From the NCBI GenBank assembly GCA_021404565.1, contig JAAWWF010000027.1, positions 124,001-188,000 of the forward strand: a stretch of DNA of 64,000 nucleotides. Direction: 5' to 3'. This document shows, in pieces, positions 36,324 through 58,172 of this stretch. The DNA is from Roseivirga sp. GTDB taxonomy: Bacteria; Bacteroidota; Bacteroidia; Cytophagales; Cyclobacteriaceae. How positions within the stretch are numbered: the stretch's first letter is position 1; every line of letters starts with the position of its first letter. The notes below the pieces were generated by a model. The model was not told the DNA's origin. It saw only the letters and a list, made by a program, of their open reading frames with translations, and made no database searches. Made by a program: the position numbers and the translations under genes.

Positions 36324-37517
36324 ATGAATCCTTTTTTAACAGAGTCTTGGAAAGAAGCAGACAAAAACATCAAGGGACTTAAGCTCCTGATGATGTTGTT
36401 TGTAGCCAATTTGATTTCGATAAACACTGTCTTTGCCCAGGGAAATAAAGACCTTCAGTTGTCGCACGGTGAACCAGTAATGACCATAGGCGAAATATCT
36501 TCACTTCAGTCGACAGTGTTGAACAAAACCGTTCCACTATCAATCCACCTACCTGTCAACTACGATAATTCCAGAAATACCTATCCCGTGCTGTATATGT
36601 TGGGTTCAGATTACCGCGCTCGGTTCGCCATGTTGGCTTCTACACTAGACTACATGGGCGAGGGACAAATTCCTGAGATGATACTTATTGGTATAGATTT
36701 ACCTGAAGGAAATCGCATTTTGTTGCCAACACGGGCAGATCAAGACACGAGCATTCCAGATGGTTACATTGAGTTCTTTGAGACTGAGTTGATGCCACAC
36801 GTTGATGGCAAATACCGAACCGCTCCCTATAATGCGCTTTATGGTGGTTCTAACAGTGGATTTTTCACAGTCTACACACTGCTCAACAACCCCGCTCTGT
36901 TTAATGCCTACTTCGCAAGTAGCCCATCCCTGATGCATATACCGGAAGTGCTTCAACAAAAAATAGAATCAGGTCCGTTAAAAACAGTTACAGAAAACAG
37001 ATTTCTACACATCATCTACAGCGATGATGAGGGATTAACGAATCACGTTTCTGAATTCTCTCGTGGTTTAGCGGACCATAAACCAGCCGGTTTTACCTAT
37101 AAAGTGGATGAACTGAAGAATCAAGGTCATGTACCAGCGATGGATTTTACACTGTTTCTTCTGGCCTTATATCCTGACTTCAATCCCTTCAATCCTGGTG
37201 AAAACCTGGAACCTTTAGATAAAGTGACAGAACATTTCGATAGGTTATCAAAACGATATGGGTATGAAATCAAGACACCCATATCGGTCCTGTTTAACCA
37301 TGGTTTTCACACGATACTGAGTAAGGATTTAAATGCCGCAGAAGCAATCTTTCAATATTCCATAGAAACGTATCCTGAGGGGAAGGAATCTTATCTAGGA
37401 ATGGGTCTTGTACGCAGAGCTCAAGGTCAGCTTGAAAGTGCTAAGGTCATGATCGAAAAAGCACTGGCAATTGATCCAGAATACTCACTGGCTCAAAGGT
37501 GGCTAAACAGACTCTAG
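36324..37517 (+). CDS. Secreted esterase (Fes/PF00756 type) with C-terminal TPR
   Basis: 397 residues. The signal segment LLMMLFVANLISINTVFAQ is preceded by about 22 residues, so Met23 or Met24 may be the true start. Alpha/beta hydrolase of the enterochelin-esterase/S-formylglutathione-hydrolase-like family: NTYPVLYMLGSDYRARFA, ELMPHVDGKYRT, nucleophile elbow YGGSNSGFFTVY and a late NQGHVPAMD carrying the likely His. Residues about 335-397 form one or two TPR motifs (AAEAIFQYSIETYPEGKESYLGMGLVRRAQGQLESAKVMIEKALAIDPEY). Its enzymatic part resembles that of the PD40 fusion at 52979. A direct-repeat regulatory site lies upstream. Confidence 0.87.
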   Translation: MNPFLTESWKEADKNIKGLKLLMMLFVANLISINTVFAQGNKDLQLSHGEPVMTIGEISSLQSTVLNKTVPLSIHLPVNYDNSRNTYPVLYMLGSDYRARFAMLASTLDYMGEGQIPEMILIGIDLPEGNRILLPTRADQDTSIPDGYIEFFETELMPHVDGKYRTAPYNALYGGSNSGFFTVYTLLNNPALFNAYFASSPSLMHIPEVLQQKIESGPLKTVTENRFLHIIYSDDEGLTNHVSEFSRGLADHKPAGFTYKVDELKNQGHVPAMDFTLFLLALYPDFNPFNPGENLEPLDKVTEHFDRLSKRYGYEIKTPISVLFNHGFHTILSKDLNAAEAIFQYSIETYPEGKESYLGMGLVRRAQGQLESAKVMIEKALAIDPEYSLAQRWLNRL

Positions 37518-37628
37518 AAATGGAATCTGGCTTGACGCATCAAAGATGACTAAAGATCAATCTGAAGCATAAACCGATCTGAGCTAAACGGTTCCATAAC
37601 AACCTCTGAAAGCACAAATACTAAACAC

Positions 37629-39701
37629 GTGAAAATCAAAATTTTATTGACGTTGATATGCGCTTTGGCGCTCAATACTGCCTTGGCACAACAGAGAAAT
37701 GGCCAGGCACCAGCCGCCAAAGGAAATGAAGACACACTCTCATTTGGAGACATTCCTGAGCTTAAAGAGGCCTATATCTCTACATCACCAGGTGAACGAA
37801 ATGATGGTATCCTGGTGGGCAAATTAGGCATCGATGGTGGTAATAAAGCGATGATTCTTAAGCTGGCACAGGAAATGGCGGAGGGCAAACATGGTAACTT
37901 CGACAGCTATCTTATTGCCCATAAAGGCAAGCTCATCTTTGAATCCTACTACAGGCGGGGCCGTATTAACCTGCCACATCCGCAGGCTTCAGCTACCAAG
38001 ACTTACACCAGCATGGCATTGGGCCGCGCCATCCAATTGGGTTACCTCACTATGGCTGATCTGAACAAACCGTTGACCAGTTTTCTGAAAGAGCTGGACC
38101 ACACAAAGTTTGTGGCCGGAACTGAAAAAATCACACTGCATCAAGCATTGACGATGCGTTCAGGTATCCAATTAAGTGCAGAGCAGAGAGAGGAGATAGA
38201 GAAAAACCCGGCAATTGTAAAAGGTCAAAAACACCTTCAGGCTTTCCTTGAAAATAGTCAACCCATAACAGATGCATCTCAGCAGTTTGCCTATAAAGAT
38301 GACCCAAGGTTGGTGATGCAAGTGATTGAAGCAGTGGTTCCGGGTACGGCTAAAGATTTTATCAAGAGAGAGCTTCTTGACAAAATGGACATTACTAACT
38401 ATGAATGGTTGACTGAGATAAACGGGCTACCACGATCTGGAAGTGGCACAAGCCTGACATCGCGCGACATGCTTAAATGGGGCCTCCTGATCATCAACAA
38501 TGGCAAATGGAAGGGTGAACAGCTGGTTCCGGCTGATTTTGTAGAAAAGGCTACCAGCAAAATTGTGAACCAAAGTGAAGAGTATGATGATCCCGGAAAA
38601 GGTGTATCAGGAACCGCATACGGCTATTTCACCTGGCAAACCGATTTTTCCGCGGGCGATAAAAGCTATCTCGCTAAATCGGCTCGGGGTGGTAGTGGAC
38701 AAAACATTTATATAATCGAAGCGCTTGATCTGGTGGTGGTGACCACTACCCATCGTCCGGTTGATAGCTCAGTATCAGTGACAGCAGAAAGAGTGCTGCC
38801 CGCTTTTATTGAAAATGCTATTCCAACCAAGAGTGCAAAAAGTGATAGCCCAGGTGAAGTCCCCCCTCTTGAAGATCGCTATCTCGGTCAAAAGCCTCCG
38901 GGATTAATTCCGGAAGTTTTTGCTCCTGGTCTTATTTCAATAAATGGAAGATATGAACATGGTATTTCGTTTTCTCCTGCTATGGATGAAGTATATTTTT
39001 CTGCTAATGTCGCAGACGTAGATCCAAGTATATATTTCTCAAAACTCGAGGGTAAAAAATGGACAATCCCCAAAAAAGCAAACTTCACAAAAGGCAAAAA
39101 AGTTGGAGAAATGCATCCGTTTGTGAGTCCTGATGGTGATAAAATTTATTTTACAGCTCATGACGCATTTACATTGCCCCAACATAAAGAATCAGTTAAG
39201 GCCTGGTATGTAAACCGTCTTGAGGATTCCTGGAGTAGCGCATCGCAACTTGATTCCCCCGTAAATGATGACTTCGTTTTTTATGCTAATCAAGCAACAA
39301 ACGGTGATCTTTTTTATACCAATGTGTCAAAACGAAAAATGTACTTTGCGCCTAATAAAAAAGGCAAATTTCCCCAGGTACAAGAAGTTGATATTGAATT
39401 TGGTTTTCACGGCTTTATCGCCCCATCTCAAGATTATTTAGTAGTCAATGCTCGAATCAAAGAAGATGCGCAAAGAAAGGACAGCGAAATCTATGTCTAT
39501 TTTAAAAAGAAAGACGGAACCTGGTCAAAACCAATCAACCTTGGAAAGGAAGTAAATTCCAATTTTCCTGAAACATGCCCCAGCATTACTCCAGATGGCA
39601 AATACCTGTTCTTTGGTAGATACAACGAAGAAGGAGGCTTATCAAACTTCTATTGGGTAAGCACAGAAGTTATTGAGCGAGTAAAACCAGCAGATTTATG
39701 A
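37629..39701 (+). CDS. Serine hydrolase fused to a PPG-type PD40 propeller
   Basis: 690 residues starting with a GTG; signal peptide 1-20 (LLTLICALALNTALAQ). Residues about 45-395 are a class-C beta-lactamase-like domain with S121-A-T-K124 (SxxK), Y222-K-D224 in the YxN position and ARGGSGQNIYI as third box. Residues 414-690 are a PD40/WD40-like propeller opening with the family signature YLGQKPPG (418-425), then FAPGLISINGRYEHGISFSP, HPFVSPDGDKIYF and ITPDGKYLFFGRYNE. The propeller is closest to that in the esterase fusion at 52979. It probably acts in the periplasm or at the surface. First of a run of six plus-strand genes. Confidence 0.9.
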   Translation: MKIKILLTLICALALNTALAQQRNGQAPAAKGNEDTLSFGDIPELKEAYISTSPGERNDGILVGKLGIDGGNKAMILKLAQEMAEGKHGNFDSYLIAHKGKLIFESYYRRGRINLPHPQASATKTYTSMALGRAIQLGYLTMADLNKPLTSFLKELDHTKFVAGTEKITLHQALTMRSGIQLSAEQREEIEKNPAIVKGQKHLQAFLENSQPITDASQQFAYKDDPRLVMQVIEAVVPGTAKDFIKRELLDKMDITNYEWLTEINGLPRSGSGTSLTSRDMLKWGLLIINNGKWKGEQLVPADFVEKATSKIVNQSEEYDDPGKGVSGTAYGYFTWQTDFSAGDKSYLAKSARGGSGQNIYIIEALDLVVVTTTHRPVDSSVSVTAERVLPAFIENAIPTKSAKSDSPGEVPPLEDRYLGQKPPGLIPEVFAPGLISINGRYEHGISFSPAMDEVYFSANVADVDPSIYFSKLEGKKWTIPKKANFTKGKKVGEMHPFVSPDGDKIYFTAHDAFTLPQHKESVKAWYVNRLEDSWSSASQLDSPVNDDFVFYANQATNGDLFYTNVSKRKMYFAPNKKGKFPQVQEVDIEFGFHGFIAPSQDYLVVNARIKEDAQRKDSEIYVYFKKKDGTWSKPINLGKEVNSNFPETCPSITPDGKYLFFGRYNEEGGLSNFYWVSTEVIERVKPADL

Positions 39702-39758: not shown

Positions 39759-40625
39759 ATGAGAGTAAAAAAAGCCAATATTCTTTTGATGCTTGCAGGG
39801 GTCTTGTTCATCAATGCCTGCAATCCTGAAAAACAGACTGCGATAGATAGTCACCCATCAACTGCGAAAGATCTGTATTTTGGACAAAGACCACCAGGTT
39901 CAAGTCCTGAAGATTTGAAGCCAGATGCCTTTTTCTCAGAAGGCTGGGAACTTGGGGCAGAATTCATTCCGGGAATGAACGAGTTTTATTTCACCACCTC
40001 TGGCAGCTCACCTTTCAGTCCCACCGTTGTCGTCTTTCGCGAGGAAAATCGTAGCTGGAAGCAATACAAATTCAACGCTACGGGTAATGATACGCTATAC
40101 TCAAAAGACAAATACATTCAGCGAACCGATTCTGGTTGGTCAGCCATAAAAAGCCTTGGTGCACCTTTTGATACTATTCCCATTATGCGCCTTACGGCTT
40201 CATCAAATGGAACCCTGGTGTTTGATGAATTCACAAGAGATGGAAATGGTGTTCTTCGATATTCACGATTGGTAAATGGCAAGCGCGAAGCACCAAAACC
40301 CCTTAGTAAAGAGGTAAATACCGGTAAATGGAATGCTCACCCCTTCATAGCTCCAGATGAGTCTTACATTATTTGGGATGGTGAAAGAGAAGACGGATAT
40401 GGCGATGGTGATATGTACATCAGCTTTCGACAGGAAGACGGTTCATGGGGTTCCGCTATAAACTTTGGGGATCAAATAAACACAGATGGTGAGGACGGTG
40501 GAGGGTACGTGACGCCAGATGGAAAATACCTTACCTATTGCCCCCGTTGTATCCCGCCTTATGACAGAAAGTGGGTGGATGCCAAAATCATTGAAGATTT
40601 AAGAACCCAAAATCAAGAAAAATGA
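39759..40625 (+). CDS. PPG-type PD40 lipoprotein
   Basis: 288 residues with a lipoprotein signal (LLMLAGVLFINAC, Cys at residue 21). The mature protein is a PD40-type propeller: YFGQRPPGSSPEDLKPD (signature), AEFIPGMNEFYFTT, HPFIAPDESYIIWDGEREDGYGDGDMYISF, YVTPDGKYLTYCPRC and the ending WVDAKIIEDLRTQ. The C-terminal WVDAxIIExLR element is shared with nearly all members of the local family. It overlaps the next gene by ATGA. Confidence 0.88.
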   Translation: MRVKKANILLMLAGVLFINACNPEKQTAIDSHPSTAKDLYFGQRPPGSSPEDLKPDAFFSEGWELGAEFIPGMNEFYFTTSGSSPFSPTVVVFREENRSWKQYKFNATGNDTLYSKDKYIQRTDSGWSAIKSLGAPFDTIPIMRLTASSNGTLVFDEFTRDGNGVLRYSRLVNGKREAPKPLSKEVNTGKWNAHPFIAPDESYIIWDGEREDGYGDGDMYISFRQEDGSWGSAINFGDQINTDGEDGGGYVTPDGKYLTYCPRCIPPYDRKWVDAKIIEDLRTQNQEK

Positions 40626-41476
40626 AAACCGCGGCATTATTAATCTTCGCGTGTATCATCTCGATTCACACTGTCCTCGCGCAAGGGACTCATGTGAATA
40701 ATCTTGATTTTCCAGCATTAGAAAATCGCTATCTAGGCCAAAAACCACCGGGATTAACACCTAAACCCTTTGCTCCGGGAATTGTCGCCTCAGAAGAATA
40801 TGTAGTGGCAGGCGGCAACTTCAGCCCAGATATGAAGGAATTCTATTTCAGCAGACAGGGTGGCGAATATAAAGAAGCGGTCCGGTTTGTGATGCACTAC
40901 GAAAATGGTGCGTGGAGTAAACCGATTGCGCTGTCAATTGATAACGACCACTATGTAGAGCGATTCAATCCCGGTTGGTCAGAGATGAAAAGTCTGGAAC
41001 ATTTCAAAAACATCAATGTCCATGGCTTGTCAGTATCTGCCAAAGGCACTTACTACACTGATCATTATACCAACGAGGGTGATAGCCCCCTTCGAATTTC
41101 GCGACTGATCAATGGCCAACGTGAAGCCCCAAAGCCAGCCGACAAGGTCATTAACACCGGAAAATGGGTAGCCCACCCCTTTATAGCTCCTGATGAATCC
41201 TACTTGTTGTGGGATGTAGAGAGAGATGGTGACTATGGTGCCGATATCTACATCAGTTTTCGACAACCAGATGGTAAATGGGGAAAGGCCATCAACATGG
41301 GCGACACCATAAACACCGGACTCTACGACCAGTGGCCCCGAGTGACACCCGATGGCAAGTATTTATTCTTCTGGAAAGGAGATGAAAAGATGAGAGCAGA
41401 TGGCAGTAACTACCTGGTTGGAAGCCCCTATTGGGTAGATGCTCAGATCATAGAAACATTCAGAAACAACCAATAA
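40622..41476 (+). CDS. PPG-type PD40 secreted protein
   Basis: 284 residues with a type I signal peptide (LLIFACIISIHTVLAQ). Signature YLGQKPPGLTPKPFAPGIV, then GNFSPDMKEFYFSR, HPFIAPDESYLLWDVERDGDYGADIYISF, RVTPDGKYLFFWK and YWVDAQIIETFR. It follows the lipoprotein gene with overlapping codons, so they are co-translated. No catalytic residues; likely a binding or scaffold propeller. Confidence 0.88.
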   Translation: MKTAALLIFACIISIHTVLAQGTHVNNLDFPALENRYLGQKPPGLTPKPFAPGIVASEEYVVAGGNFSPDMKEFYFSRQGGEYKEAVRFVMHYENGAWSKPIALSIDNDHYVERFNPGWSEMKSLEHFKNINVHGLSVSAKGTYYTDHYTNEGDSPLRISRLINGQREAPKPADKVINTGKWVAHPFIAPDESYLLWDVERDGDYGADIYISFRQPDGKWGKAINMGDTINTGLYDQWPRVTPDGKYLFFWKGDEKMRADGSNYLVGSPYWVDAQIIETFRNNQ

Positions 41477-41528: not shown

Positions 41529-42161
41529 ATGAGCGACCAAAAAGCGATTCTGACCCTCATTCTTTTAATGCTAACAAGCAGCATTTTTGCGCAGCAAAGC
41601 GGTAATACCACTCAACCCATGGTCATCAACCCTACCAGTAAAGCAGGCCTTCTCGATGGCAGTTGTGGCAACGATGAATGGGACGCAGCAACAAAAATAG
41701 ACATGCCGGGTCAGGCCGCCATTTACTTTATGCACGATGAAGATTATTTCTACTTCTGTGCCTCAGGTAAAGAAGAAGACTATACGGTCATAGACCTGTT
41801 TATAGAAAACGGAGCAACGCAACAGTTGCACAAATTTCATCTCTCAGCTCAAATGGGAGAAGCCATACTTACAGACAATGAATGGAAACCTGCATCCGGT
41901 AAATGGGATTTAAAGGATTATGCCGGGTTCTGGGTGCCATTTTCCGGACTTGAGGATGACGAAAAGAGATCGGGCCCAATATTCGAAACCGGGACACATC
42001 GTCAGTTGCAGATAGCACGCAAAAAATTCCCAGGTAATACCTGGAACATCTTGGTTGGCCTGGGAGCAGTCAGACATGAAGGTGAGGGACAACTTTTCTA
42101 CCCAAAAAACGGAAAAGGTGACGATAAGTCAACCTGGGCTCAGTTTTCATTCTCTAAGTAA
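41529..42161 (+). CDS. Secreted CBM9/DOMON-like protein
   Basis: 210 residues with a signal peptide (LILLMLTSSIFAQ). The mature part looks like the DOMON/CBM9-like beta sandwich: LLDGSCGNDEWDAATKIDMPGQAAIYFMHDEDYFYFCASG, FIENGATQQLHKFHLSAQMGEAIL and RQLQIARKKFPGNTWNILVGLGAV. Such domains bind sugars or heme. It is the one member of this run without the PPG signature, lying between PD40 genes in the same orientation, so it is probably part of the same unit. Confidence 0.72.
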   Translation: MSDQKAILTLILLMLTSSIFAQQSGNTTQPMVINPTSKAGLLDGSCGNDEWDAATKIDMPGQAAIYFMHDEDYFYFCASGKEEDYTVIDLFIENGATQQLHKFHLSAQMGEAILTDNEWKPASGKWDLKDYAGFWVPFSGLEDDEKRSGPIFETGTHRQLQIARKKFPGNTWNILVGLGAVRHEGEGQLFYPKNGKGDDKSTWAQFSFSK

Positions 42162-42184
42162 GCAGCAATACAAGAATGCTAAGC

Positions 42185-43921
42185 ATGAAAAAAGCACATA
42201 TCATTCTGTGGTTTGCAGGTGCAGTATTTCTAACGGCTTGTAATGCTAAAATACAGAGCGCCAATAACCATGATTTCCCACCTCTGGAAGACCGATATTT
42301 TGGAGAAGAGCCTCCAGGCTTAGTGCCTGAACTGTTCGACCCCAAAATGGTCTCTCCCGAAGGACTTTTTGAAGGGGGTATGTTTTCTCAAAACATGAAG
42401 GAATTCTATTTCACCAGGAAAAATGGGGAGTATGAAAAACGCACATTTTTTGTGATTCGATATGAAAATAACAGCTGGGGTCAGGAATCTGAGACCGATA
42501 TAAAATGGCCGAGATTCTCTGAGGATGGCAAAACAATGTATATTGGAAAGGACTATAGAGAACGCACAGACAGGGGTTGGTCAGAACCCATAAGTCAAGG
42601 AGAATTCCTGAAAGACCAGGCACATGGTTGGTCTATCACATCTAAAGGCACTTATTATTATGCCGTTTACAAAAAGGAAGACAAGAACATAAACGGCTCT
42701 CTTTATTATTGTCCATTTGCAGATGGCAAGTATGAAAACCCAGTAAGGTTGAATGCCGATATTAATACAGGAGAATACATAGCTCACCCCTTTATTGCGC
42801 CAGATGAATCTTATTTAATTTGGGATGTCAGACGAGAAGGTGGATATGGGCAAGCAGATCTCTATATCAGCTTTAAGCAAAATGATACAGAGAATTCTTG
42901 GTCTCCTCCCGTGAATATGGGGCAAGCGATTAATAGTGAAATGCAAGAAAGCTCGCCCATGGTGACACAAGATGGGAAATACTTATTTTTTACCAGAGGA
43001 GAATGGGTAGAAAAGGAAGATGGAAGCACTTATTATGTGGGTAAAAGACATTGGGTTGATGCTAAGGTTATTGAAACACTCCGACCTGATCCGAACTTGC
43101 AAAATACAGGAGTCACCTCCTACCCTATTGCTTATGGGTCAAATGGTATTTGCCTCACCAATAAAGACGGCACCTCAACCATAAGACTAACCGCGGGTCA
43201 GCATGGCTACCCTGCCTGGTCTCCCAACGGCAAGCGTTTAGCATTCTATGGCTATTACGATGGAGGCAAGACCTGGTCTATTCATACCATGAACAGCGAT
43301 GGTTCTAATAGAAAGCGCCTGACCCATGTAAAGAACAAATGGGACAATATGCCTGTCTGGTCGCCCGATGGGTCTAAGATCATTTTTGGAAGAGACTACA
43401 GAGATGCTTCAGGGGCCTGGCACTATGAACTCTGGAAGATGAATGCCGATGGCAGCGAGCAGACTCAAATCAAATCACTCAGTGGCGGTGGTCCTTCTTT
43501 TATGCCCGATGGCCGACTGCTTTACCATTCAGAACACAAAAACAAAGAGAGCGAGATAAGCATAGCTGATTTAAATGGTGAGAACATCATTCACCTCACC
43601 GATAATGAAGCAGAAGAGTGGGATCCGAAAATCTCGCCCGATGGCAAGCAAATCACTTTTATGTCTAAGCGAGATGGAAATCGTGAAATCTATGTAATGA
43701 ATGTGGATGGTTCTAACCAAACACGCTTAACGTACAATGATGGTTCTGATGGAGGGCCAACCTGGTCTCCTGATGGTACTCAAATCGTATTTCATTCCGA
43801 AACAGAAAGGGACGGAGAAACTGAAAACAGTACCTACATCATGAATAAAGATGGCTCTTCGCTAAGAAAAATGGTCCATAATAGCTGGCAACCTTCATGG
43901 TTTAAAAAAGGGCCAAAATAG
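42185..43921 (+). CDS. PPG-type PD40 lipoprotein with extra TolB-like propeller
   Basis: 578 residues from the ATG at 42185 (MKKAHIILWFAGAVFLTAC; lipobox LTAC); an ATG three codons earlier is also possible. Residues about 25-300 are a typical local PD40 unit (YFGEEPPGLVPELFDPKMVSPEGLFEGGMFS ... YWVDAKVIETLR-type ending). Residues about 305-578 add a second propeller of TolB-like PD40 repeats: PAWSPNGKRLAFYGYYDG, PVWSPDGSKIIFGRDY, PKISPDGKQITFMSKRDGNREIYVMNVDGSNQ and PTWSPDGTQIVFHSE. The only family member here with two propellers. Confidence 0.9.
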   Translation: MKKAHIILWFAGAVFLTACNAKIQSANNHDFPPLEDRYFGEEPPGLVPELFDPKMVSPEGLFEGGMFSQNMKEFYFTRKNGEYEKRTFFVIRYENNSWGQESETDIKWPRFSEDGKTMYIGKDYRERTDRGWSEPISQGEFLKDQAHGWSITSKGTYYYAVYKKEDKNINGSLYYCPFADGKYENPVRLNADINTGEYIAHPFIAPDESYLIWDVRREGGYGQADLYISFKQNDTENSWSPPVNMGQAINSEMQESSPMVTQDGKYLFFTRGEWVEKEDGSTYYVGKRHWVDAKVIETLRPDPNLQNTGVTSYPIAYGSNGICLTNKDGTSTIRLTAGQHGYPAWSPNGKRLAFYGYYDGGKTWSIHTMNSDGSNRKRLTHVKNKWDNMPVWSPDGSKIIFGRDYRDASGAWHYELWKMNADGSEQTQIKSLSGGGPSFMPDGRLLYHSEHKNKESEISIADLNGENIIHLTDNEAEEWDPKISPDGKQITFMSKRDGNREIYVMNVDGSNQTRLTYNDGSDGGPTWSPDGTQIVFHSETERDGETENSTYIMNKDGSSLRKMVHNSWQPSWFKKGPK

Positions 43922-44037
43922 TGGTAGAGACGAAGACTTCTAGCATTCAGAACCCAATGGCGCAAATCAAATAAAACGCCTCATTTATACTTCAATAAAC
44001 AAGGCAAGCATTGCCTCCGAAATACAAACCTAAGCTC

Positions 44038-44940
44038 ATGAACAAGATACATTTCCCCCTGTTGCTCGCAGCAACACTACTTATAAATGCTTGCAGTAAT
44101 AAGTCTCAGACAGCAGACAATTCGCATGCTCAAGCCTTACAAAACCTGTATTTCGGAGAAGAACCACCCGGCTTAGTCCCCAAGTTGTTTGACCCTAAAA
44201 CTGTCTCTCCCGAAGGGCTCTTTGAAGGGGGGGCGTTTTCGCCAGATTTGAAGGAGTACTACTTTACCAGAATGGACCAGAACTACGAAAAACGCTCATT
44301 TTTCGTGATTTACAACGAAAACGGCATCTGGGGAAACGAATCAGAGACCGATATAAGATGGCCTCACTTTTCAGAAGATGGTACGATGATGTATGGTGGG
44401 AAGTGGTATCGGGAACGAACCGAAAATGGTTGGTCAGAGCTAAAAAATCAGGGCGAATTCCTGAAAGACCAGGCACACGGCATTTCGCGTTCATCTAAGG
44501 GAACCTATTTTTTGGGTGCTTATAGAAAAGAAGACAATGGACCCAGCTCCTTAAGTTATTCGCGATTCATAAACGGCAAATATGAAAACCCCGTTAAAAT
44601 GAGCGAAGAGATAAATACGGGAAAATGGATTGCCCACCCTTTCATTGCTTCAGATGAATCCTATCTAATGTGGGATGCTGAAAGAGAAGAAGGACATGGC
44701 GATAACGACTGTTATATCAGTTTCAGGCAGAGAGATGGTTCATGGGGAGCAGCCATAAACCTGGGAGCCCAAATAAACACATCATCAAATGAAAGCTCCC
44801 CAAGGGTGACGCTTGATGGTAAATACCTCTTCTTTTCAAGGGGAGACTGGAAGAGCAGAGAAGATGGAAGTACCTACTGGGTTGGGAAGACGTACTGGGT
44901 TGATGTTCAGATTATTGAAAATCTGAGGCCAAAAAATTGA
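44038..44940 (+). CDS. PPG-type PD40 lipoprotein
   Basis: 300 residues from the ATG at 44038 (MNKIHFPLLLAATLLINAC); the TTG at 44011 is rejected because it would extend the signal peptide. It is a close paralogue of the first propeller of the preceding protein: YFGEEPPGLVPKLFDPKTVSPEGLFEGGAFSPDLKEYYFTR, FFVIYNENGIWGNESETDIRWPHFSEDG, and WVDVQIIENLRPKN at the end. Recent duplication is likely. It is convergent with the LytTR regulator gene that follows. Confidence 0.9.
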   Translation: MNKIHFPLLLAATLLINACSNKSQTADNSHAQALQNLYFGEEPPGLVPKLFDPKTVSPEGLFEGGAFSPDLKEYYFTRMDQNYEKRSFFVIYNENGIWGNESETDIRWPHFSEDGTMMYGGKWYRERTENGWSELKNQGEFLKDQAHGISRSSKGTYFLGAYRKEDNGPSSLSYSRFINGKYENPVKMSEEINTGKWIAHPFIASDESYLMWDAEREEGHGDNDCYISFRQRDGSWGAAINLGAQINTSSNESSPRVTLDGKYLFFSRGDWKSREDGSTYWVGKTYWVDVQIIENLRPKN

Positions 44941-49592: not shown

Positions 49593-51983
49593 ATGCTCAA
49601 AAGCTATATAAAAGTCGCATACCGAAACCTGCTGAGGCAGCCTGTCTATACCGCCCTCAACATCATTGGTCTTACGGTGGGTATTGCCTCCAGCCTGATC
49701 ATTCTGCTGTATATTTTTCACGAAACGAGTTTCGACAAGCATCATTCAAAAGCTGACAGGGTTTATCGACTATCTACTGAGTTTCACGATTCGGATGGCG
49801 TCACCAAATGGTCAAATATGACCATGCGGGCGGCCTTCACTGTAAAAAATGAAAATCCAGAAGTGATTCAGGCAACCAGGTTGCAAAGCATCGATTTTCA
49901 ACGCCCAACACGGTTTGAGTTCAATCAAGTCGATTACTATCAGGAGAATGTCTATGCTGCGGATTCAACGATATTCCAAGTTTTTGACTACGAGTTTATA
50001 GCTGGCAACCCCACGACAGCTTTGGAAGCACCAAATTCGATTGTCATCAATGAGTCGATGGCCAGGAAGATTTTCAAAGATGAAAATCCAATGGGTCAAA
50101 CCATCAAAAGTGATCGTAATCAAGGCATGACACTGCAAGTGACAGGTGTCTATAAGGATGTACCTAAGGCATCCCACCTGATCGCTGATGCTTTAATTTC
50201 CTGGAAAACGATCTTTCCTGAAGATGACCCATGGGGAGCGTGGGGTGTGTTTTCCTATGTTTTAGTGCAAGAAGGAGTTTCACAAGAAGCCTTACAAACC
50301 AAGCTTGATTCAACCACTGCTAAACACTTAGATCCGGTTACTGAACGGTTTAATGTAAAGGTCAAAATGGCAGCACTACCTTTAGAAAGTATCCATTTGA
50401 CATCAGATTTCGAACATGAACCAGAGCCGCTTGGCAGCATTCAATATGTTCAAATCTTCACGGCCATAGCTATTTTCCTGATCCTTATTGCCAGTATCAA
50501 CTATATGAATTTGGCCACGGCTCGTTCTGTCAAACGATCTATGGAGGTGGGTTTAAGAAAAGTAATGGGTGCTAAGAGAGGTGGTCTGATCGCTCAATTT
50601 TTAACTGAATCCATTCTGATTACGCTTATTTCGCTAATGCTAAGTCTTCTGATTATCATAATTGTTGTTCCAGGAATAAACGACCTTGTGGGTACTCATT
50701 TAGCAATTGAAGGGTTGCTTCACCCTAATGTAATACTCACGGTTATCGGTATCGTCATTATCACAGGCTTTATTGGTGGTTGCTATCCAGCCTTCTTTTT
50801 GTCTTCTTTTAAGCCTGCAGCCGTGCTGAAAGGTGTAGGCGGCAAGTCTGGTAGTAAGCTTTTGAGGAAGGTTTTGGTAACGCTACAGTTTTCCATTTCC
50901 ATATTCATGCTCATAGGCACCTTTGTCATTTATTCCCAAATGCAATTTATCAGGAACAAAGACCTGGGTTTTGACAAAGAGCAGTTGATGCTCATCAATT
51001 TCAGAAGTAGCGAAGACCGGGAGAAATGGCCTGTCCTTAGAAATGAATTGGTTCAAAACATCAATATTGCTGGTGCTGCTTCATCGAGCTCGACACCAGG
51101 AGATGGCCATCCCACCAACTCATTGCTGATTGAGACTGAAGAAGGGACGATGGAAAACCGAGGCATATTCAATTATAGGGTCGATTACGATTACTTTTCT
51201 GCTCTTGGGGTTGAGGTAGTAGAAGGAAGAAACTTCTCATGGGACTTTCCGACAGACTCTTCTCAAGCTGTTATGGTAAATGAAGCCATGGTGCGAAGAA
51301 TGAACTGGACCAACCCAATTGGTAAAAAGGTTCGTCTGTCTCGCAACGATTCGGTGCCTCCTGCCCTGGTCGTAGGTGTGGTAAAAGACTTTCATCAGCA
51401 ATCACTCTACGAACCCATCACTCCTTTAATGTTCCGCCCCAATCGTGTCAATGGATTCGCCCTGGTTAAAATCACGGGAGACGTTAATGCTGGCATTGAC
51501 TTCGTTGAAGCAGCATGGGAGAGTATTTTCCCAACCACAGCATTTGATTTTGGCTTCATTGATCAGCAGTTCATGGAACACTATGAGGCTGACCAGGTCC
51601 GTGGCCAGTTATTTTTAGGCTTTTCTGGCATGACCATCTTAATAGCATGCCTGGGACTATTAGGCCTGGCCTCATACACTGCAGAACAACGAGCAAAAGA
51701 GATCAGCATTAGAAAAGTGTTAGGAGCCAATACGCAAGGTTTGATCAATCTCCTGATTAAAGACTTCGTGCTGCTCATTCTGATCGCGGCTGTACCCGCA
51801 TCGGCTATGGGTTATTTCTCTATGATGGATTGGCTGGAAAGTTTCCAGTTTCATATCACTCCGGGTATTACAATATTTTTAACCGTACTCATAGGAACCT
51901 TGGCCCTAACAGTACTCACTACAGGTTATCATGCGCGGAAGGCTGCCACAGCCAACCCGGCACAAAACCTAAGAAGTGAATAA
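49593..51983 (+). CDS. FtsX/MacB-type permease (cluster copy 2)
   Basis: 796 residues, colinear with copy 1: MLKSYIKVAYRNLLRQPVY start, TM1, FtsX motifs MEVGLRKVMGAKRGGLIAQFLTESI and AKEISIRKVLGANTQGLINLL, and a HARKAATANPAQNLRSE end. Differences cluster in the two periplasmic domains, as expected if these contact different partners. A PPG-PD40 gene starts 76 bp after the stop on the same strand. Confidence 0.92.
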   Translation: MLKSYIKVAYRNLLRQPVYTALNIIGLTVGIASSLIILLYIFHETSFDKHHSKADRVYRLSTEFHDSDGVTKWSNMTMRAAFTVKNENPEVIQATRLQSIDFQRPTRFEFNQVDYYQENVYAADSTIFQVFDYEFIAGNPTTALEAPNSIVINESMARKIFKDENPMGQTIKSDRNQGMTLQVTGVYKDVPKASHLIADALISWKTIFPEDDPWGAWGVFSYVLVQEGVSQEALQTKLDSTTAKHLDPVTERFNVKVKMAALPLESIHLTSDFEHEPEPLGSIQYVQIFTAIAIFLILIASINYMNLATARSVKRSMEVGLRKVMGAKRGGLIAQFLTESILITLISLMLSLLIIIIVVPGINDLVGTHLAIEGLLHPNVILTVIGIVIITGFIGGCYPAFFLSSFKPAAVLKGVGGKSGSKLLRKVLVTLQFSISIFMLIGTFVIYSQMQFIRNKDLGFDKEQLMLINFRSSEDREKWPVLRNELVQNINIAGAASSSSTPGDGHPTNSLLIETEEGTMENRGIFNYRVDYDYFSALGVEVVEGRNFSWDFPTDSSQAVMVNEAMVRRMNWTNPIGKKVRLSRNDSVPPALVVGVVKDFHQQSLYEPITPLMFRPNRVNGFALVKITGDVNAGIDFVEAAWESIFPTTAFDFGFIDQQFMEHYEADQVRGQLFLGFSGMTILIACLGLLGLASYTAEQRAKEISIRKVLGANTQGLINLLIKDFVLLILIAAVPASAMGYFSMMDWLESFQFHITPGITIFLTVLIGTLALTVLTTGYHARKAATANPAQNLRSE

Positions 51984-52058: not shown

Positions 52059-52916
52059 ATGAAAACAACATCAATCCTAATACTCACCTGCTTGCTATCT
52101 CTCAATTCAGTCTTTGCACAAGAAACTGTAGAACCAGGTGTATATGACCCCAACCTAACGGGCCTCTATCTAGGCCAAAAACCTCCGGGTTTAACAGCTG
52201 AAGTCTTTGCCCCCGGCATTGTTTCTACAAGGCTTTATGAACTCTTCAGCGCATTTACCCCTGATATGAAGGAGTTCTACTTTGTCAGGTATGATGAAGA
52301 GGACAAGCCTTTTATGATCGTCTATCAATACAAAAGTAACCGCTGGCAAAAGTCTGTAACAGGGCCCAGAGTGGGCGAACCGTTTATTACCCCCGATGGC
52401 AAAACCATGCACCTCGGCAGGCGATACATGGAGCGTACTGAAAGCGGCTGGTCAGAAGTAAAAAGTCTTGCAGCACCCTATAAGGACTTTCGCATCATGC
52501 GCCTGACCACTTCATCAAAAGGCACCTACTTTTTCGACACAGCAGGAGAAGAACCTATTCGGTATTTCCATATGGAAAATGGAAAACCAGGAGAGCCAAA
52601 GACACTGGATATTGACCTTGGAAAGCATAATGCGCATCCCTGGATTGCCCCGGATGAATCTTACCTGATCTGGGATGACCAAAGAGAAAGCGGTCATGGT
52701 GGCGCTGATATTTATATCACTTACAAGCAAAAGGATGGTTCCTGGGGCCCCTCTATCAACCTGGGCGACAAGATCAATTCCGAAAGATCGGACTCCTATC
52801 CTACTGTGACCCCTGATGGCAAATACCTTCTCTTCAACAGAAGTATAGATGAGAACAATGTAGATATCTACTGGGTGGATGCAGGATTTATTGAAGAACT
52901 CAGACCGAAGAACTAA
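52059..52916 (+). CDS. PPG-type PD40 secreted protein
   Basis: 285 residues with a signal peptide (ILILTCLLSLNSVFAQ). Signature YLGQKPPGLTAEVFAPGIVS, then AFTPDMKEFYFVRYDEED, HPWIAPDESYLIWDDQRESGHGGADIYITYKQKDGSW, TVTPDGKYLLFNRSIDENNVDIYWVDAGFIEELRPKN. Middle repeat GRRYMERTESGWSEVKSLAAPYKDFRIMRLT is shared with the protein at 54746. Lies between a permease gene and the esterase-PD40 fusion. Confidence 0.89.
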   Translation: MKTTSILILTCLLSLNSVFAQETVEPGVYDPNLTGLYLGQKPPGLTAEVFAPGIVSTRLYELFSAFTPDMKEFYFVRYDEEDKPFMIVYQYKSNRWQKSVTGPRVGEPFITPDGKTMHLGRRYMERTESGWSEVKSLAAPYKDFRIMRLTTSSKGTYFFDTAGEEPIRYFHMENGKPGEPKTLDIDLGKHNAHPWIAPDESYLIWDDQRESGHGGADIYITYKQKDGSWGPSINLGDKINSERSDSYPTVTPDGKYLLFNRSIDENNVDIYWVDAGFIEELRPKN

Positions 52917-52978: not shown

Positions 52979-54658
52979 ATGAAGAAAGCAAAAACACTAC
53001 TGATATTGACACTTTGCCTGTCTCTAAACACCGTTTTCGCCCAGAAAAGCACTTCCTTTACTTTAGACCAGGTGCAGGTGATTCCTATTAAGGACAACCA
53101 GAATGACCGGAACTATGAGCTTTATATTGAGCTCCCCGAAGGCTACGCTGAAAACCCAGACAAACGGTACCCGGTGCTCTATTATACCGATGCCAAATGG
53201 CATTTGGAGGTTTTGGCTGTCAGCCAGGAATACATTATGACCGATTTGATCCTGGTGGGTATTTCCTGGCAAAAAGATATAAATGAAGCGCTGGTTGAAG
53301 AACATGGAGAGCACGTAAGCAGGTTTCGTGATTACTCGGTTGTTCCCTTAAGCGACCCTGAACGCCAGACCAAATATCAATTAGGACAGGCAGGTAATCA
53401 TCTGGCATTTATACGCGAAGATGTCTTTGCATTCGTAGAGAAAAATTACCGGACTATCCCTGAGAATCGCACCTATTTCGGGTATTCAGCAGGTGGTGTG
53501 TTTGGCTGTTACACGCTGCTTTCACTACCCAATACTTTCAAAAACTACATTCTGGGAAGCCCTGCGCTCAGGGGTGACATCCCCTACCTCACTGAGTTAG
53601 CTGCTACCACAAAAAATCAAAACCTGAATGCCAATGTCTTTATCTCTCATGGCACTGAAGAGGAAGAAGCGAGTGGCTATGTCGAACAGTTCATCACTTT
53701 ACTGAAAGGACGTAATGATCAGAGCTTGTCTATAACCCATCCGGTACTTGAAGGCAGCCATCAAACTGCTTTTCCTTTGACTGGAGTGCACAGTGTCACC
53801 TGGTTATCAAACTTAACAGAAGATGGTGAATTTCCAGTCTTGAAAGGTCCTTACTTAGGGCAAAAACCACCAGGCTTAACTCCTGAAATTTTTGCACCTG
53901 GTATTGTTTCGATCAATGGAAGGTTTGAGGGTGGTATTTCATTTTCTCCCGATTTCGATGAAATGTACTTTGGAGCCAGTAATGAAGATGAAGAAACACA
54001 TATTTATTTTTCAAAGCTCCGGAACAATCAATGGACTCCCATAAAAAGAGCAAATTTCACGAACGGGAGGAAAAAGGAAGAAATGCATCCATTCGTTAGC
54101 CCTGACGGTAAAAGGATTTATTTCACAGCTCTGGACTCTGCTTTTATGGATGAAAAAATCTGGTATGTAAATAGATTGGAGGGTTCCTGGAGTGAGGCCA
54201 TTCTACTTGAGTCACCTATCAATGACGACCTGGTGTTTTATCCTAATCAGGCAAGAAACGGAGATCTCTATTATTTCAATTTGTCACAATTCAAAATGTA
54301 TGCTGCTCTCAACAGTGACGGAGTGTTTCCCGAAACAAGAGAAATGGAAATTGAATTTGGTCACCACGGTTTCATTTCTCCATCGCAGGATTATTTGTTA
54401 GTGACTGATCGAAACAAAGAGGATGAAAGTAGAAAAGACAACGATATTTATGTCTACTTCAAAAATCAAGGCGGTACATGGTCGAAGCCCATTAACCTCG
54501 GAAATACAATCAATACTAATTTCAATGAAAAGAGCCCGAGTATCACTCCAGATGGTAAATATCTATTTTTTGGCAGAGACGAAAGGGACATAGAGCCTGG
54601 CCTATCAAATATCTACTGGGTGGATGCACAGATTATCGAAACCCTTAGGCCTAAATAG
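52979..54658 (+). CDS. Esterase (Fes/PF00756 type) fused to a PPG-type PD40 propeller
   Basis: 559 residues with a signal peptide (1-22). Residues 25-285 are an alpha/beta hydrolase: YPVLYYTDAKWHLEV, nucleophile Ser170 in YFGYSAGGVFG and probable catalytic His261 in EGSHQTAFP. Residues 290-559 are a PD40 propeller opening with PYLGQKPPGLTPEIFAPGIVSINGRFEGGISFSPDFDEMYF and ending SNIYWVDAQIIETLRPK. The propeller is most similar to that fused to the beta-lactamase-like domain at 37629, so the same propeller subtype has been joined to two unrelated hydrolases. A compact terminator follows. Confidence 0.92.
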   Translation: MKKAKTLLILTLCLSLNTVFAQKSTSFTLDQVQVIPIKDNQNDRNYELYIELPEGYAENPDKRYPVLYYTDAKWHLEVLAVSQEYIMTDLILVGISWQKDINEALVEEHGEHVSRFRDYSVVPLSDPERQTKYQLGQAGNHLAFIREDVFAFVEKNYRTIPENRTYFGYSAGGVFGCYTLLSLPNTFKNYILGSPALRGDIPYLTELAATTKNQNLNANVFISHGTEEEEASGYVEQFITLLKGRNDQSLSITHPVLEGSHQTAFPLTGVHSVTWLSNLTEDGEFPVLKGPYLGQKPPGLTPEIFAPGIVSINGRFEGGISFSPDFDEMYFGASNEDEETHIYFSKLRNNQWTPIKRANFTNGRKKEEMHPFVSPDGKRIYFTALDSAFMDEKIWYVNRLEGSWSEAILLESPINDDLVFYPNQARNGDLYYFNLSQFKMYAALNSDGVFPETREMEIEFGHHGFISPSQDYLLVTDRNKEDESRKDNDIYVYFKNQGGTWSKPINLGNTINTNFNEKSPSITPDGKYLFFGRDERDIEPGLSNIYWVDAQIIETLRPK

Positions 54659-54745: not shown

Positions 54746-55627
54746 ATGAAAACAAGGCTATTATTAATACTGACAATTGCTTTATCTCTTAACAGTACGC
54801 ATGCGCAAGAAAATCAGAAAAGTGCTTTCAGTTTTCCAACCATAGAGGGACCATACATGGGGCAACAGCCTCCCGGTTTGGTGGCAGAACCATTTGCTCC
54901 GGGAATCATCTCCAAGGCAGGCTGGGAGATAGAAGGTGTTTTTGCTCCCGGAATGGATGAATTTTACTTCACCACGCGCAGTGGCAAAGGTAAGCCTATC
55001 ACCGTCATTGGCTTCCGCAGGCAAAACAACGCCTGGAAGAAATACATTGAATTCAAACGCACGGGGGAAATATCGTTCTCACCTGATGGTTCACGCATGT
55101 ACATGGCGAAAGGCTATAAAGACCGCATTGGTGATGGCTGGTCAAAACGCAAAAGCCTTGGCCCACTGTTTGATCGCAAAGACTGGGGCATCATGCGCCT
55201 ATCGGCCTCTGCTCAAGGCACCTATGTTTTTGATGATTATAAAAACGATGACGTAATCCGCATATCAAGGCTAATAGACGGCAAGCGTCAAGCTCCGGAA
55301 GAAATGGGGCCAGTAGTAAACACAGGAGAATGGACGGCACATCCCTTTATTGCTCCGGATGAAAGCTACCTCATCTGGGACAGTGAGCGAGAAGGTGGCT
55401 ACGGAGAGTCTGATCTTTACATTAGTTTCAAACAGAGCGATGGAGCATGGGGTACCGCAATCAATATGGGCGATAAAGTCAATTCTGACAAATGGGAAGC
55501 CTTTGTAAGTGTTACCTCTGACGGTAAATACATACTCTTCAACAGGGCAATAGATGACGATTATGATAATGTCGACATCTACTGGGTGGATGCCAAAATT
55601 ATTGAGGATCTCAGGTCTAAGCAGTAA
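54746..55627 (+). CDS. PPG-type PD40 secreted protein
   Basis: 293 residues with a signal peptide (LLLILTIALSLNSTHAQ). Signature YMGQQPPGLVAEPFAPGIISKAGWEIEGVFAPGMDEFYFTT, then FSPDGSRMYMAKGYKDRIGDGWSKRKSLG, HPFIAPDESYLIWDSEREGGYGESDLYISFKQSDGAW and DIYWVDAKIIEDLRSKQ. Preceded by a terminator, so it probably has its own promoter. Confidence 0.89.
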   Translation: MKTRLLLILTIALSLNSTHAQENQKSAFSFPTIEGPYMGQQPPGLVAEPFAPGIISKAGWEIEGVFAPGMDEFYFTTRSGKGKPITVIGFRRQNNAWKKYIEFKRTGEISFSPDGSRMYMAKGYKDRIGDGWSKRKSLGPLFDRKDWGIMRLSASAQGTYVFDDYKNDDVIRISRLIDGKRQAPEEMGPVVNTGEWTAHPFIAPDESYLIWDSEREGGYGESDLYISFKQSDGAWGTAINMGDKVNSDKWEAFVSVTSDGKYILFNRAIDDDYDNVDIYWVDAKIIEDLRSKQ

Positions 55628-55781
55628 ACCATATAGCAAGTGCACAACCCAGACAGAGGTTTATTTTGAATCGCTTTCATAGCAGATGATTTAATTACAT
55701 GATAGGTTATCATATCTTTACTCAACCGGTGCTGGAACAATTTCATGTTTCGAATCGTCAAAGAACAAAACAATAACTCGC

Positions 55782-58172
55782 ATGCTTAAAAATTATATAA
55801 AGGTTGCTTTCCGAAGTCTGCTAAGACAACCTGGCTACACAGCCCTCAATATTATTGGACTTACGGTTGGTATTGCCTCTAGTTTAATAATCCTGCTATA
55901 TATTTTTCATGAAACGAGTTTTGATAAACAGCATTCCAAGGGGGATCGGATCTATCGCCTTTCAACGGAAATAACTGAGCCCGACAATTCATTTAAGTGG
56001 GCTAATATGACGAGCCGGGCAGCATTTACAGTTAAAAACGAAAACCCTGAGGTAGTACAAGCCACTCGAATGCAAGGCATTAGTCCTCAAGGTGGAAGGC
56101 GGTTTGATTATAATCAGGTTGATTACTTCCAGGAAAACGTCTATGCCGCTGACTCAACGATTTTCGAGTTGTTTGATTATGAATTTGTAGCCGGTGATCC
56201 TAAAACTGCATTGGAAGCGCCTAATTCGATAGTCATCAATCAGTCCATGGCAACAAAGATCTTTAAAAATGAAAATCCCATTGGTCAAACCATTCGAAGC
56301 GGTGGAAACAGGGAAATGTCCTTGCAAGTTACAGGCGTATATAAAGACATGCCTAAGACTTCTCACCTGATAGCTGAGGCTTTGGTATCCTGGAAGACGA
56401 TCTTTCCAGGCGAAGATACGGGCTGGGGAGGCTGGGGAGTCTTCTCCTATGTTTTAGTGAATGACGGTGTCACGAAAGAAGCCTTACAAGTGAAGCTTGA
56501 TTCGACTGTTGCCAAATACATAGACCCGATCTTTGAGCCGATTAATATCAAGGTCAAAATGATCCCGGTCCCTTTAAAAAGTATCCATTTGACTTCAGAC
56601 TTTGAATATGAACCAGTGCCAGCCGGCAATATTCAATATGTTCAAATCTTCACTGCAATAGCCATTTTCCTCATCATTATTGCGAGTATCAACTATATGA
56701 ACCTGGCAACAGCACGATCTGTCAAGCGGTCTATGGAAGTGGGCTTAAGAAAAGTAATGGGTGCCCAAAGAAGCGGTTTAATAGGTCAGTTTTTAACTGA
56801 ATCAATTCTAATTACGCTGATATCGCTGATCTTAAGCATACTTGTCATGATGGCTGTTGTTCCAGGAATAAACAGCATTGTGGGTACTAGTTTGGCTATC
56901 GAGGGATTACTTCATACCAATGTCATATTAGCGGTCATCGGTATCGTGTTTATCACAGGCTTTATGGGTGGTTGCTATCCTGCTTTCTTTTTGTCTTCTT
57001 TTCAGCCAGCGGCTGTGCTCAAAGGCGGAGGAAAATCTGGCAACAAATTATTAAGGAAGGTCCTGGTGACACTACAGTTTTCCATTTCCATCTTCATGCT
57101 CATTGGTACTTTGGTTATTTATGCTCAAATGCAATTTGTCAGGAACAAGGATTTAGGTTTTGACAAAGAGCAGATGATGCAAATCGACTTTAGAAGTAGA
57201 GCAGATGTGGAGAAATGGAATATCCTTAAAAATGAATTGGTTCAAAATGCCAATATCGGTGGGACCGGATCATCAAGTACGACTCCTGGAAATGATTATG
57301 GAAAAAACGTATTCTCAATCGAGACTGAAGAAGGCCCCATGGACCCCCGTGGATTAGACAACTATAGGGTTGACTATGATTTCTTTCCTACCCTGGGTAT
57401 TGAGGTGGTTCAGGGAAGAAACTTCTCATTGGATTATGCTTCTGATTCTTCTCAGGCTGTAATGGTAAATGAAGCCATGGTGCGAAGAATGAATTGGACA
57501 AACCCAATCGGTAAAAAGATTAATCTGACTGGAAATGACTCTTTACCTCCTGCCCTGGTCGTGGGTGTGGTTAAGGATTTCCATCAACAATCACTTTACG
57601 ACCCAATCACCGCCCTGATGTTTATCCCAAGCCGTATCAATGGTTCCGCCATTGTTAAAATCACCGGAGACATCAACTCTACTATTGACTATATTCAAGA
57701 GGCATGGGAAAGAACCTACCCTACCACAGCATTTGAGTATGTGTTTATTGATGAGCAATTCATGGAGAACTACGAGGCTGATCAAATCCGTGGCCAATTA
57801 TTCTTAGGTTTTTCCGGCATGACCATCTTGATCGCTTGTTTGGGATTATTAGGTTTGGCTTCCTACACTGCAGAGCAGCGCTCAAAGGAAATCAGCATTA
57901 GAAAAGTGCTTGGCGCTAATACACAAGGTCTGATTAACCTGCTCATTAAAGACTTTGTCATTCTCATCGTCATTGCTGCCATACCAGCCTCGGTATTAGG
58001 TTATTTTTCCATGATGGGTTGGCTGGAAAATTTCCAATTCCACATCACTCCGGGTTTTACCATATTTGCAACCGTACTGGTAGGTACTGTTATGGTAACG
58101 GTGCTCACTACGGGTTATCATGCCCGTAAAGCTGCCACCGCTAACCCAGCCCAGAAGCTGAGGAGTGAATAA
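55782..58172 (+). CDS. FtsX/MacB-type permease (cluster copy 3)
   Basis: 796 residues, colinear with copies 1 and 2: MLKNYIKVAFRSLLRQPGYTALNIIGLTVGIASS, MEVGLRKVMGAQRSGLIGQFLTESI, SKEISIRKVLGANTQGLINLLIKD, HARKAATANPAQKLRSE. The soluble domains mix features seen in copy 1 and copy 2, suggesting tandem duplication with later exchange. It is the last gene of the cluster; a MITE-like element follows. Confidence 0.92.
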   Translation: MLKNYIKVAFRSLLRQPGYTALNIIGLTVGIASSLIILLYIFHETSFDKQHSKGDRIYRLSTEITEPDNSFKWANMTSRAAFTVKNENPEVVQATRMQGISPQGGRRFDYNQVDYFQENVYAADSTIFELFDYEFVAGDPKTALEAPNSIVINQSMATKIFKNENPIGQTIRSGGNREMSLQVTGVYKDMPKTSHLIAEALVSWKTIFPGEDTGWGGWGVFSYVLVNDGVTKEALQVKLDSTVAKYIDPIFEPINIKVKMIPVPLKSIHLTSDFEYEPVPAGNIQYVQIFTAIAIFLIIIASINYMNLATARSVKRSMEVGLRKVMGAQRSGLIGQFLTESILITLISLILSILVMMAVVPGINSIVGTSLAIEGLLHTNVILAVIGIVFITGFMGGCYPAFFLSSFQPAAVLKGGGKSGNKLLRKVLVTLQFSISIFMLIGTLVIYAQMQFVRNKDLGFDKEQMMQIDFRSRADVEKWNILKNELVQNANIGGTGSSSTTPGNDYGKNVFSIETEEGPMDPRGLDNYRVDYDFFPTLGIEVVQGRNFSLDYASDSSQAVMVNEAMVRRMNWTNPIGKKINLTGNDSLPPALVVGVVKDFHQQSLYDPITALMFIPSRINGSAIVKITGDINSTIDYIQEAWERTYPTTAFEYVFIDEQFMENYEADQIRGQLFLGFSGMTILIACLGLLGLASYTAEQRSKEISIRKVLGANTQGLINLLIKDFVILIVIAAIPASVLGYFSMMGWLENFQFHITPGFTIFATVLVGTVMVTVLTTGYHARKAATANPAQKLRSE

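Follow-up and report, generated by a model that had tools for sequence, protein, structure and literature searches.

A candidate LytTR regulon of PPG propellers, serine hydrolases and orphan permeases in a Roseivirga genome

What holds together a run of genes for exported propellers, hydrolases, and permeases, and does one regulator control them? The question is raised by a 64,000-nucleotide stretch of Roseivirga sp. DNA (contig JAAWWF010000027.1, positions 124,001 to 188,000), hereafter the window, in which positions 36324-58172 encode eight PD40 propellers with a shared PPG start, three permeases, two esterases, and a beta-lactamase-like domain. A sequence-only reading had proposed a joint function under LytTR control from the interleaving of these genes. 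Gene order alone proves insufficient for that proposal, and the support we find for it is an operator-like DNA site that precedes both plus-strand gene runs and tracks one LytTR two-component pair, HK2/RR2. Because the cluster genes have this one conserved, switch-like site in common, we regard them as one jointly controlled system, very probably a single LytTR regulon.

Results

An operator-like direct repeat tracks HK2/RR2

We collected 79 PPG-propeller loci in other genomes, taken from the 80 top-ranking of 507 relatives, with similarity to the first row of our alignment as the criterion. Of 50 selected loci, 48, representing 47 genomes, were searched for orthologs of the histidine kinase HK2; those left out of the selection were mostly from other phyla or on short contigs. 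Strong orthologs (52-66% identity, >600 bits) are present in 17 of the 47 genomes, an eighteenth holds a 46% match, and 14 of the 17 strong-ortholog loci have a PPG propeller no more than 7 kb from HK2. Relatives of the partner regulator RR2 in four loci (L041, L069, L072, and L137) are 72.9-76.2% identical to it. The idea that HK2 is simply a common gene was rejected: in two overlapping samples of other genomes, from the order and from the class, with the best 7 or 3 HK2 candidates per genome scored, matches occur in 4 of 193 and 3 of 394 genomes, respectively, all at ≤43% identity, and the window holds the only strong ortholog. Nine HK2-match regions fetched from these samples contain no PPG propeller, and none lies near the weaker HK2 relatives (≤46%) found in eleven regions of nine genomes.

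In the window and in the 17 strong-ortholog loci, the 200 bases that precede HK2 contain a direct repeat, GAGCAGTTCA-N10-GAGCAGTTGA, with a period of 20 bp. A scan with a LytTR consensus, [TA][AC][CA]GTTN[AG][TG], gave one forward and one reverse match in 18 regions and was abandoned; because it returned almost nothing, we identified the box from words that the regions share. A matrix of the repeat scores operator 1, in the HK2/EST1 gap, at 52.4 bits, this site being within the training set, and operator 2, in the perm1/perm2 gap (GAGCAGTTCG followed by GAGCAGTTGA), at 33.2 bits though it is outside the training set; the next best site in the window reaches 3.7 bits. An independent matrix (15 sites, window and Roseivirga excluded; 27 distinct sites chosen by score) gives 44.8 and 31.5 bits for the two operators and 3.6 bits for the next site, and the maximum over 40 dinucleotide shuffles is 16.7 bits. 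A counterpart of operator 2 occupies the same place in Roseivirga OFTM338.

Searched in 76 genomes with at most one mismatch, the repeat pattern is present in 17 of the 18 strong-HK2 genomes (28 matches) versus 2 of the 58 others, with one match each (Fisher p 8e-14, uncorrected for relatedness), and the reversed pattern has five matches across all 76. In G577, the one strong-HK2 genome that the pattern misses, the matrix detects a site, which belongs to its training set. At this stringency the window's own genome carries two sites, both in the cluster. All 17 matches beside HK2 point away from it. Eleven further matches fall in HK2 genomes, seven of them directly upstream of cluster-type genes: perm2 (twice), EST1, the beta-lactamase-propeller fusion, and propellers (three). 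Another stands before a glyoxalase-like gene, after which comes a propeller, and yet another before an alpha/beta hydrolase located behind three propellers. In G574, which has no propeller beside HK2, a PPG propeller on a different contig has the second site upstream of it. Next to the HK2-side site (n = 18), the first gene beyond it encodes a TolB-like propeller in seven cases, all relatives of the TolB-like half of the 42176-43921 protein, a serine hydrolase in four (PF00144 was tested in two, with which the remaining two share 66-73% identity), and in one case each a PPG propeller, EST1, and a relative of the 41529-42161 protein.

Two weaker HK2 relatives (L142:8958 and L128:8955) have a diverged repeat upstream, at 27.7 and 16.6 bits, which would fit a separate version of the repeat being maintained in each branch. 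In a separate locus (L200), an ORF (open reading frame) at 7398-8183, which resembles three tandem ORFs at 28590-30893 of the window, comes after an operator-linked propeller.

LytTR genes are enriched near PPG propellers

By our assignment, 48 of the 79 loci are from Bacteroidota, 28 from gammaproteobacteria or other phyla, and three from alphaproteobacteria, with one locus (L103) lacking a stated phylum. The 48 Bacteroidota loci contain 31 LytTR genes in 868 kb versus about 6.2 expected, and 23 of the 48 have at least one; the expectation derives from 787 LytTR genes in 109.6 Mb of 24 genomes. We picked those 24 Bacteroidota genomes ourselves among those with full 20-kb loci, including all eleven with HK2 in the locus, and the 48-locus count is independent of this choice. 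Within the 24 corresponding loci, 24 LytTR genes are observed, or 13 without RR2 orthologs, versus 3.44 expected. LytTR genes were detected in loci with a model built from the loci regulators and in genomes with the Pfam model, gene densities in two of the 24 genomes were counted as at least 82, and all neighborhood and genome counts are uncorrected for relatedness.

The other PD40 loci of the window's own genome show no such excess. LytTR genes neighbor 8 of 37, with 9.0 expected for all 39 entries; 37 is the fair denominator because the cluster itself accounts for two of the 39. This control covers 49 of 114 listed PD40 positions, at least one per locus by eye, with 150 of 346 candidates scored. 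PPG propellers above 300 bits occur in 3 of the 394 other class genomes, where a LytTR pair adjoins cluster genes in three of five loci fetched, and one of the three alphaproteobacterial loci has a LytTR gene.

Permeases were rejected as a general partner of the propellers, with two genes in the 24 loci versus 2.39 expected and permeases in 4 of the 48 Bacteroidota loci. Of the two associations anticipated for this neighborhood in Bacteroidota, that with LytTR genes thus stands and that with permeases does not, except in the narrower form described next.

A dedicated permease subfamily belongs to the cluster

With perm3 as query against eight genomes and membership set at ≥64% identity, the matches listed include four subfamily permeases in the window's own genome, three in the cluster and one on contig C77. 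Those listed for Roseivirga E12 number three, each within its cluster, and those for Roseivirga OFTM338 comprise three in the cluster, of which a contig end truncates one, another on contig C64, and a partial copy at another contig end. The next relatives among the matches listed are ≤44% identical. For the copies on C77 and C64, we saw no propeller closer than about 10 kb. perm1-perm3 thus form a dedicated subfamily that is clustered in the window as well as in two Roseivirga genomes, and it is for this subfamily, not as a rule, that the permease association holds. perm1 is 91.5% identical to its copy in the OFTM338 cluster and perm3 89% to its copy in the E12 cluster, which in a different order keeps HK2/RR2, EST1, the beta-lactamase-propeller fusion, propellers, HK1/RR1, and three permeases. 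In all, three sampled genomes hold at least 128, 99, and at least 128 perm3-like orphan permeases. perm1, the permease scanned against two further models, stays below the cut-off of each: it scores 309.3 bits on the ADOP model TIGR03434 (cut-off 622.3) and 139 bits on the darobactin exporter permease model (cut-off 700).

Composition of the cluster

The proposed gene set at 36324-58172 was borne out by ORF and Pfam scans (Table 1). Besides one regulator pair, all ORFs lie on the plus strand and encode exported proteins or permeases. A six-frame search of the window finds the PPG motif eight times, once in each of eight ORFs, and the expected WVDAxIIExLR-type end is present as WV-x4-IE at the C terminus of all eight propellers; their alignment has 35 invariant columns, and Pfam recognizes PD40 in every one. 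The three permeases carry MacB_PCD and FtsX domains, and, as had been noted, none of the 15 ORFs scanned encodes an ABC ATPase. PF00756 identifies the two esterases and PF00144 the beta-lactamase-like domain. Only the placement of two LytTR systems within 22 kb needs amendment: the pair at 44978-46760 is inside, and HK2/RR2 (33780-36163), the more telling pair, lies just upstream. The exported protein at 41529-42161 and the operator-like sites are members that the earlier reading had lacked.

Table 1. Features of the cluster and its flanking regulator pair, by position in the window
Feature	Position	Strand	Description
RR2	33780..34544	-	REC + LytTR response regulator, HK2 partner; PF00072, PF04397
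HK2	34481..36163	-	Lipobox-like N terminus, periplasmic domain, seven transmembrane segments (7TM), His_kinase; PF06580 45.9 bits
Putative RR2 operator 1	36219..36258	+	GAGCAGTTCA (36223-36232) / GAGCAGTTGA (36243-36252), points at EST1
EST1	36324..37517	+	Exported esterase-like alpha/beta hydrolase, TPR-like tail; PF00756 56.2 bits
Beta-lactamase-like serine hydrolase fused to C-terminal PPG propeller	37629..39701	+	PF00144 58.5 bits, PD40 46.1 bits
PPG propeller	39759..40625	+	PD40; alignment; lipobox-like INAC
PPG propeller	40622..41476	+	PD40; alignment
Exported protein without family match	41529..42161	+	No Pfam match at E 1, no PDB match at E 1
PPG propeller + TolB-like propeller	42176..43921	+	PD40 132.4 bits; lipobox-like LTAC
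PPG propeller	44011..44940	+	PD40; alignment; lipobox-like INAC
RR1	44978..45682	-	REC + LytTR; PF04397 70.2 bits
HK1	45684..46760	-	PF06580-kind histidine kinase, 86.9 bits
Inverted AGACGAA pair, candidate RR1 site	46801..46911		In divergent gap HK1/perm1
perm1	47014..49410	+	MacB_PCD/FtsX permease without ATPase
Putative RR2 operator 2	49408..49447	+	GAGCAGTTCG (49412-49421) / GAGCAGTTGA (49432-49441), perm1/perm2 gap
perm2	49593..51983	+	MacB_PCD/FtsX permease
PPG propeller	52059..52916	+	PD40; alignment
Esterase (GYSAG at 168) fused to PPG propeller	52979..54658	+	PF00756 44.2 bits, PD40 50.7 bits
PPG propeller	54746..55627	+	PD40; alignment
perm3	55782..58172	+	MacB_PCD/FtsX permease

Among solved structures, EST1 best matches the IroE-like hydrolase 3gff (1.5e-12), its TPR-like tail staying below the cut-offs of the TPR models, and the 52979-54658 esterase best matches 2qm0, 'BES' (2.1e-11). 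The beta-lactamase-like enzyme has SATK at position 121. The TolB-like protein scores 135.2 bits on the TolB model TIGR02800, below its cut-off of 343.15. In two Roseivirga genomes, PPG propellers carry a fused domain that is 67-70% identical to the unmatched exported protein; at a guess, the protein has a carbohydrate-binding look. Lipobox-like starts are found in three propellers (39759, 42176, and 44011) and HK2. Elsewhere, 29 listed PPG fusions comprise beta-lactamase-like, esterase-like, 41529-like, TolB-like, ankyrin-like, and metallo-beta-lactamase-like partners, the last two assigned by eye. In more distant loci (L089, L092, L098, L103, L105, L108, and L116), PPG propellers follow ankyrin-looking repeats or form long runs, of eight in L103, and no LytTR gene is in view there.

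The host genome measures 8.57 Mb (three sampled congeners have 4.1-4.2 Mb) and is rich in all three classes of gene, with at least 150 MacB_PCD permeases (150 of 418 candidates scored), at least 114 PD40 proteins (150 of 346 scored), and 109 LytTR genes. Because all are abundant, their mere presence together is weak evidence. The genome's top eight matches to a PPG-propeller profile (359 to 450 bits) all lie in the cluster, and the next scores 212. PADLOC models of known anti-phage defense match none of the ten proteins submitted. Between 39500 and 58600, promoter-like sites number 34 versus 37.7 in shuffles and terminator-like sites 24 versus 17.8; because the former do not exceed the shuffles, we set operon limits by strand, gaps, and operator positions. 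Outside the cluster, the three tandem ORFs at 28590-30893 encode 234-261 residues, the first two sharing by eye the start IKxFRKIRQDL and the third being more distant, and a 604-residue protein without Pfam match (58531-60345) directly follows the cluster.

Two regulator pairs

Both RR1 and RR2 contain REC and LytTR domains above the Pfam cut-offs. HK2 scores 25.9 bits on PF07695 (cut-off 29), and its periplasmic domain has no PDB or Pfam match; its lipobox-like Cys is conserved by eye in the 18 strong HK2 sequences of the alignment. Strong HK1 orthologs adjoin PPG propellers in three loci (L159, L160, and L196), and HK1/RR1 orthologs recur in Roseivirga E12, OFTM338, and Leptobacterium. A candidate RR1 site, an inverted AGACGAA pair, lies in the divergent gap of three of four HK1 loci, window included, and in L159 with one mismatch (by eye); the boxes are 88-89 bp apart in the window, at HK1 of L160/L073, and in L196. 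A search for the inverted pair over 2.56 Mb gave five matches, one of them unrelated (L086). We also looked for a direct repeat upstream of HK1-type kinases in other genomes and dismissed it, finding repeats in two of 19 upstream regions only; words around ATCAATGACGAA are common to five or six of the 19.

Discussion

Several observations weigh against a regulon governed by HK2/RR2. Three of the 17 strong HK2 loci (L139, L140, and L141) have no PPG propeller nearby, the contigs of L140 and L141 being 13 and 8 kb long; 29 of the 47 propeller genomes yield no HK2 match at E 1e-40; and two genomes that hold both (G389 and G509) have HK2 relatives that are weak and located elsewhere. At the sites themselves, box 1 is diverged in one training member (L043), 2 of the 28 pattern matches (G609 C1 and G619 C12) have no cluster-gene relatives within 10 kb, and in 4 of the 18 HK2 loci the operator is followed first by a gene for a TonB-receptor-like protein. 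None of the 28 gammaproteobacterial and other-phylum PPG loci has a LytTR neighbor. With these points counted in, the regulon is still the reading that we moderately favor overall.

Much the same parts could be neighbors by chance in a large genome where orphan permeases, PD40 proteins, and LytTR pairs abound, as the host counts and the lack of permease enrichment at the 24 other propeller loci would allow; an operator-like site common to both gene runs, two Roseivirga genomes that keep much of the gene content in a different order, and a LytTR excess confined to PPG loci, as opposed to other PD40 loci of the same genome, make such an origin highly improbable. An antimicrobial or envelope-stress response would give the permeases a larger part. 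BceAB-type detoxification modules place an FtsX permease with an outside domain beside a two-component system, and by analogy the permeases here would sense or move a peptide or lipid that the hydrolases inactivate. perm2 and perm3 do lie in one run with esterase and propeller genes, separated by gaps of 62-154 bp, perm1 gives its subthreshold match to the darobactin exporter permease, and beta-lactamase-like neighbors occur in 11 of the 48 Bacteroidota loci. We nevertheless think this unlikely, with no ATPase in the cluster, permeases at so few Bacteroidota loci, and no PADLOC match.

Scavenging of a nutrient or iron chelate by siderophore-esterase-like enzymes, with TonB-type uptake in some relatives, is a possibility we hold tentatively: the IroE-like and 'BES' structures head the esterases' sequence matches, which may hint at such substrates, and TonB-receptor-like genes are first targets in some HK2 loci as noted above, but PF00756 is a broad family and no TonB receptor is among the 15 ORFs of the cluster. 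The remaining alternative, envelope maintenance by parts akin to PorE/OmpA-PD40, in type IX secretion or in outer-membrane integrity, appears very remote. The five propellers scanned score 22-61 bits on the T9SS_PorE and CHU_0125_OmpA models, the best at 60.9 against cut-offs of 600 and 620; none of the eight has an OmpA domain, they are fused to hydrolases instead, and their distribution is patchy, with strong matches in 3 of 394 other class genomes.

For the regulon, we infer a scheme in which HK2, a membrane kinase with a lipobox-like N terminus and a periplasmic domain, would phosphorylate RR2, whose LytTR domain would bind the direct repeat of 20-bp period and activate two gene runs, from EST1 to the propeller at 44011 and from perm2 to perm3. 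The products, namely esterases, the beta-lactamase-like enzyme, propellers, and permeases with MacB-type periplasmic domains, are exported and may recognize an ester- or amide-linked outside compound, cleave it, and deal with what results at the envelope. Binding or gating could be the part of the propellers, both the free ones and those fused to enzymes, and HK1/RR1, divergent from perm1, could be a second regulator within the set. We chose the processing role because hydrolysis of an outside compound is the thread common to the domain company; that the regulon cleaves such an ester- or amide-linked compound is possible, if doubtful. More speculative still is the picture of a chemosensory processing system in which banks of paralogous envelope propellers form a modular layer that recognizes one class of outside ester or amide compounds and feeds it to propeller-tethered serine hydrolases, with ATPase-less FtsX permeases mechanically reporting to LytTR kinases in a feedback loop through one dedicated operator.

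A literature search, only part of it aimed at this gene set and with most subscription journals outside its reach, found no description of the set and no paper on a Bacteroidota LytTR recognition sequence. Genomes of this type hold about a hundred or more perm3-like orphan permeases each, and a conserved operator-like site that brings a small number of them together with propellers and hydrolases next to one LytTR system defines a testable regulon. The direct repeat is a concrete candidate for a LytTR recognition sequence in Bacteroidota, and the HK2 inducer, once found, should lead to the substrate.

Compared with known systems, the cluster shares features with several. Unlike BceAB-type modules, it lacks an ATPase and adds hydrolases and propellers. 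Its permeases resemble the ADOP/MacB-type orphan permeases (TIGR03434, PF12704 + PF02687) in joining MacB_PCD and FtsX domains in about 800 residues with no ATPase in the cluster, but perm1 falls below the TIGR03434 cut-off and the subfamily is tied to this cluster. In the HAAS-PadR system, orphan FtsX proteins with an outside MacB/PCD domain are proposed as signaling parts over plain transport (PMC11237479), and a reporting role for perm1-perm3, which have the same FtsX-like membrane part and outside domain, is therefore thinkable; they differ in that no HAAS domain was found in them and in having a LytTR regulator rather than PadR. PD40 blades are likewise shared with PorE, OmpA, TolB, and isopeptidases, and the 52979 protein sets an alpha/beta hydrolase beside its propeller. 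PMC11878206 describes isopeptidases with the propeller N-terminal to the enzyme and proline exopeptidases in which the propeller gates the active site, whereas here the propeller is C-terminal to the enzyme and bears the PPG start and WVDA end. By shape only, finally, the direct repeat resembles a LytTR operator. LytTR regulators recognize 9-bp repeats with a 12-bp spacer, and the SilA element has 10-bp repeats with an 11-bp spacer, according to PMC2766830; our repeat shares with SilA-type regulons a LytTR regulator, two 10-bp direct repeats about two helical turns apart start to start, and a GTT core, and it differs in a spacer of 10 bp and in its targets, which are exported propellers, hydrolases, and permeases, with no peptide signal gene noted among them.

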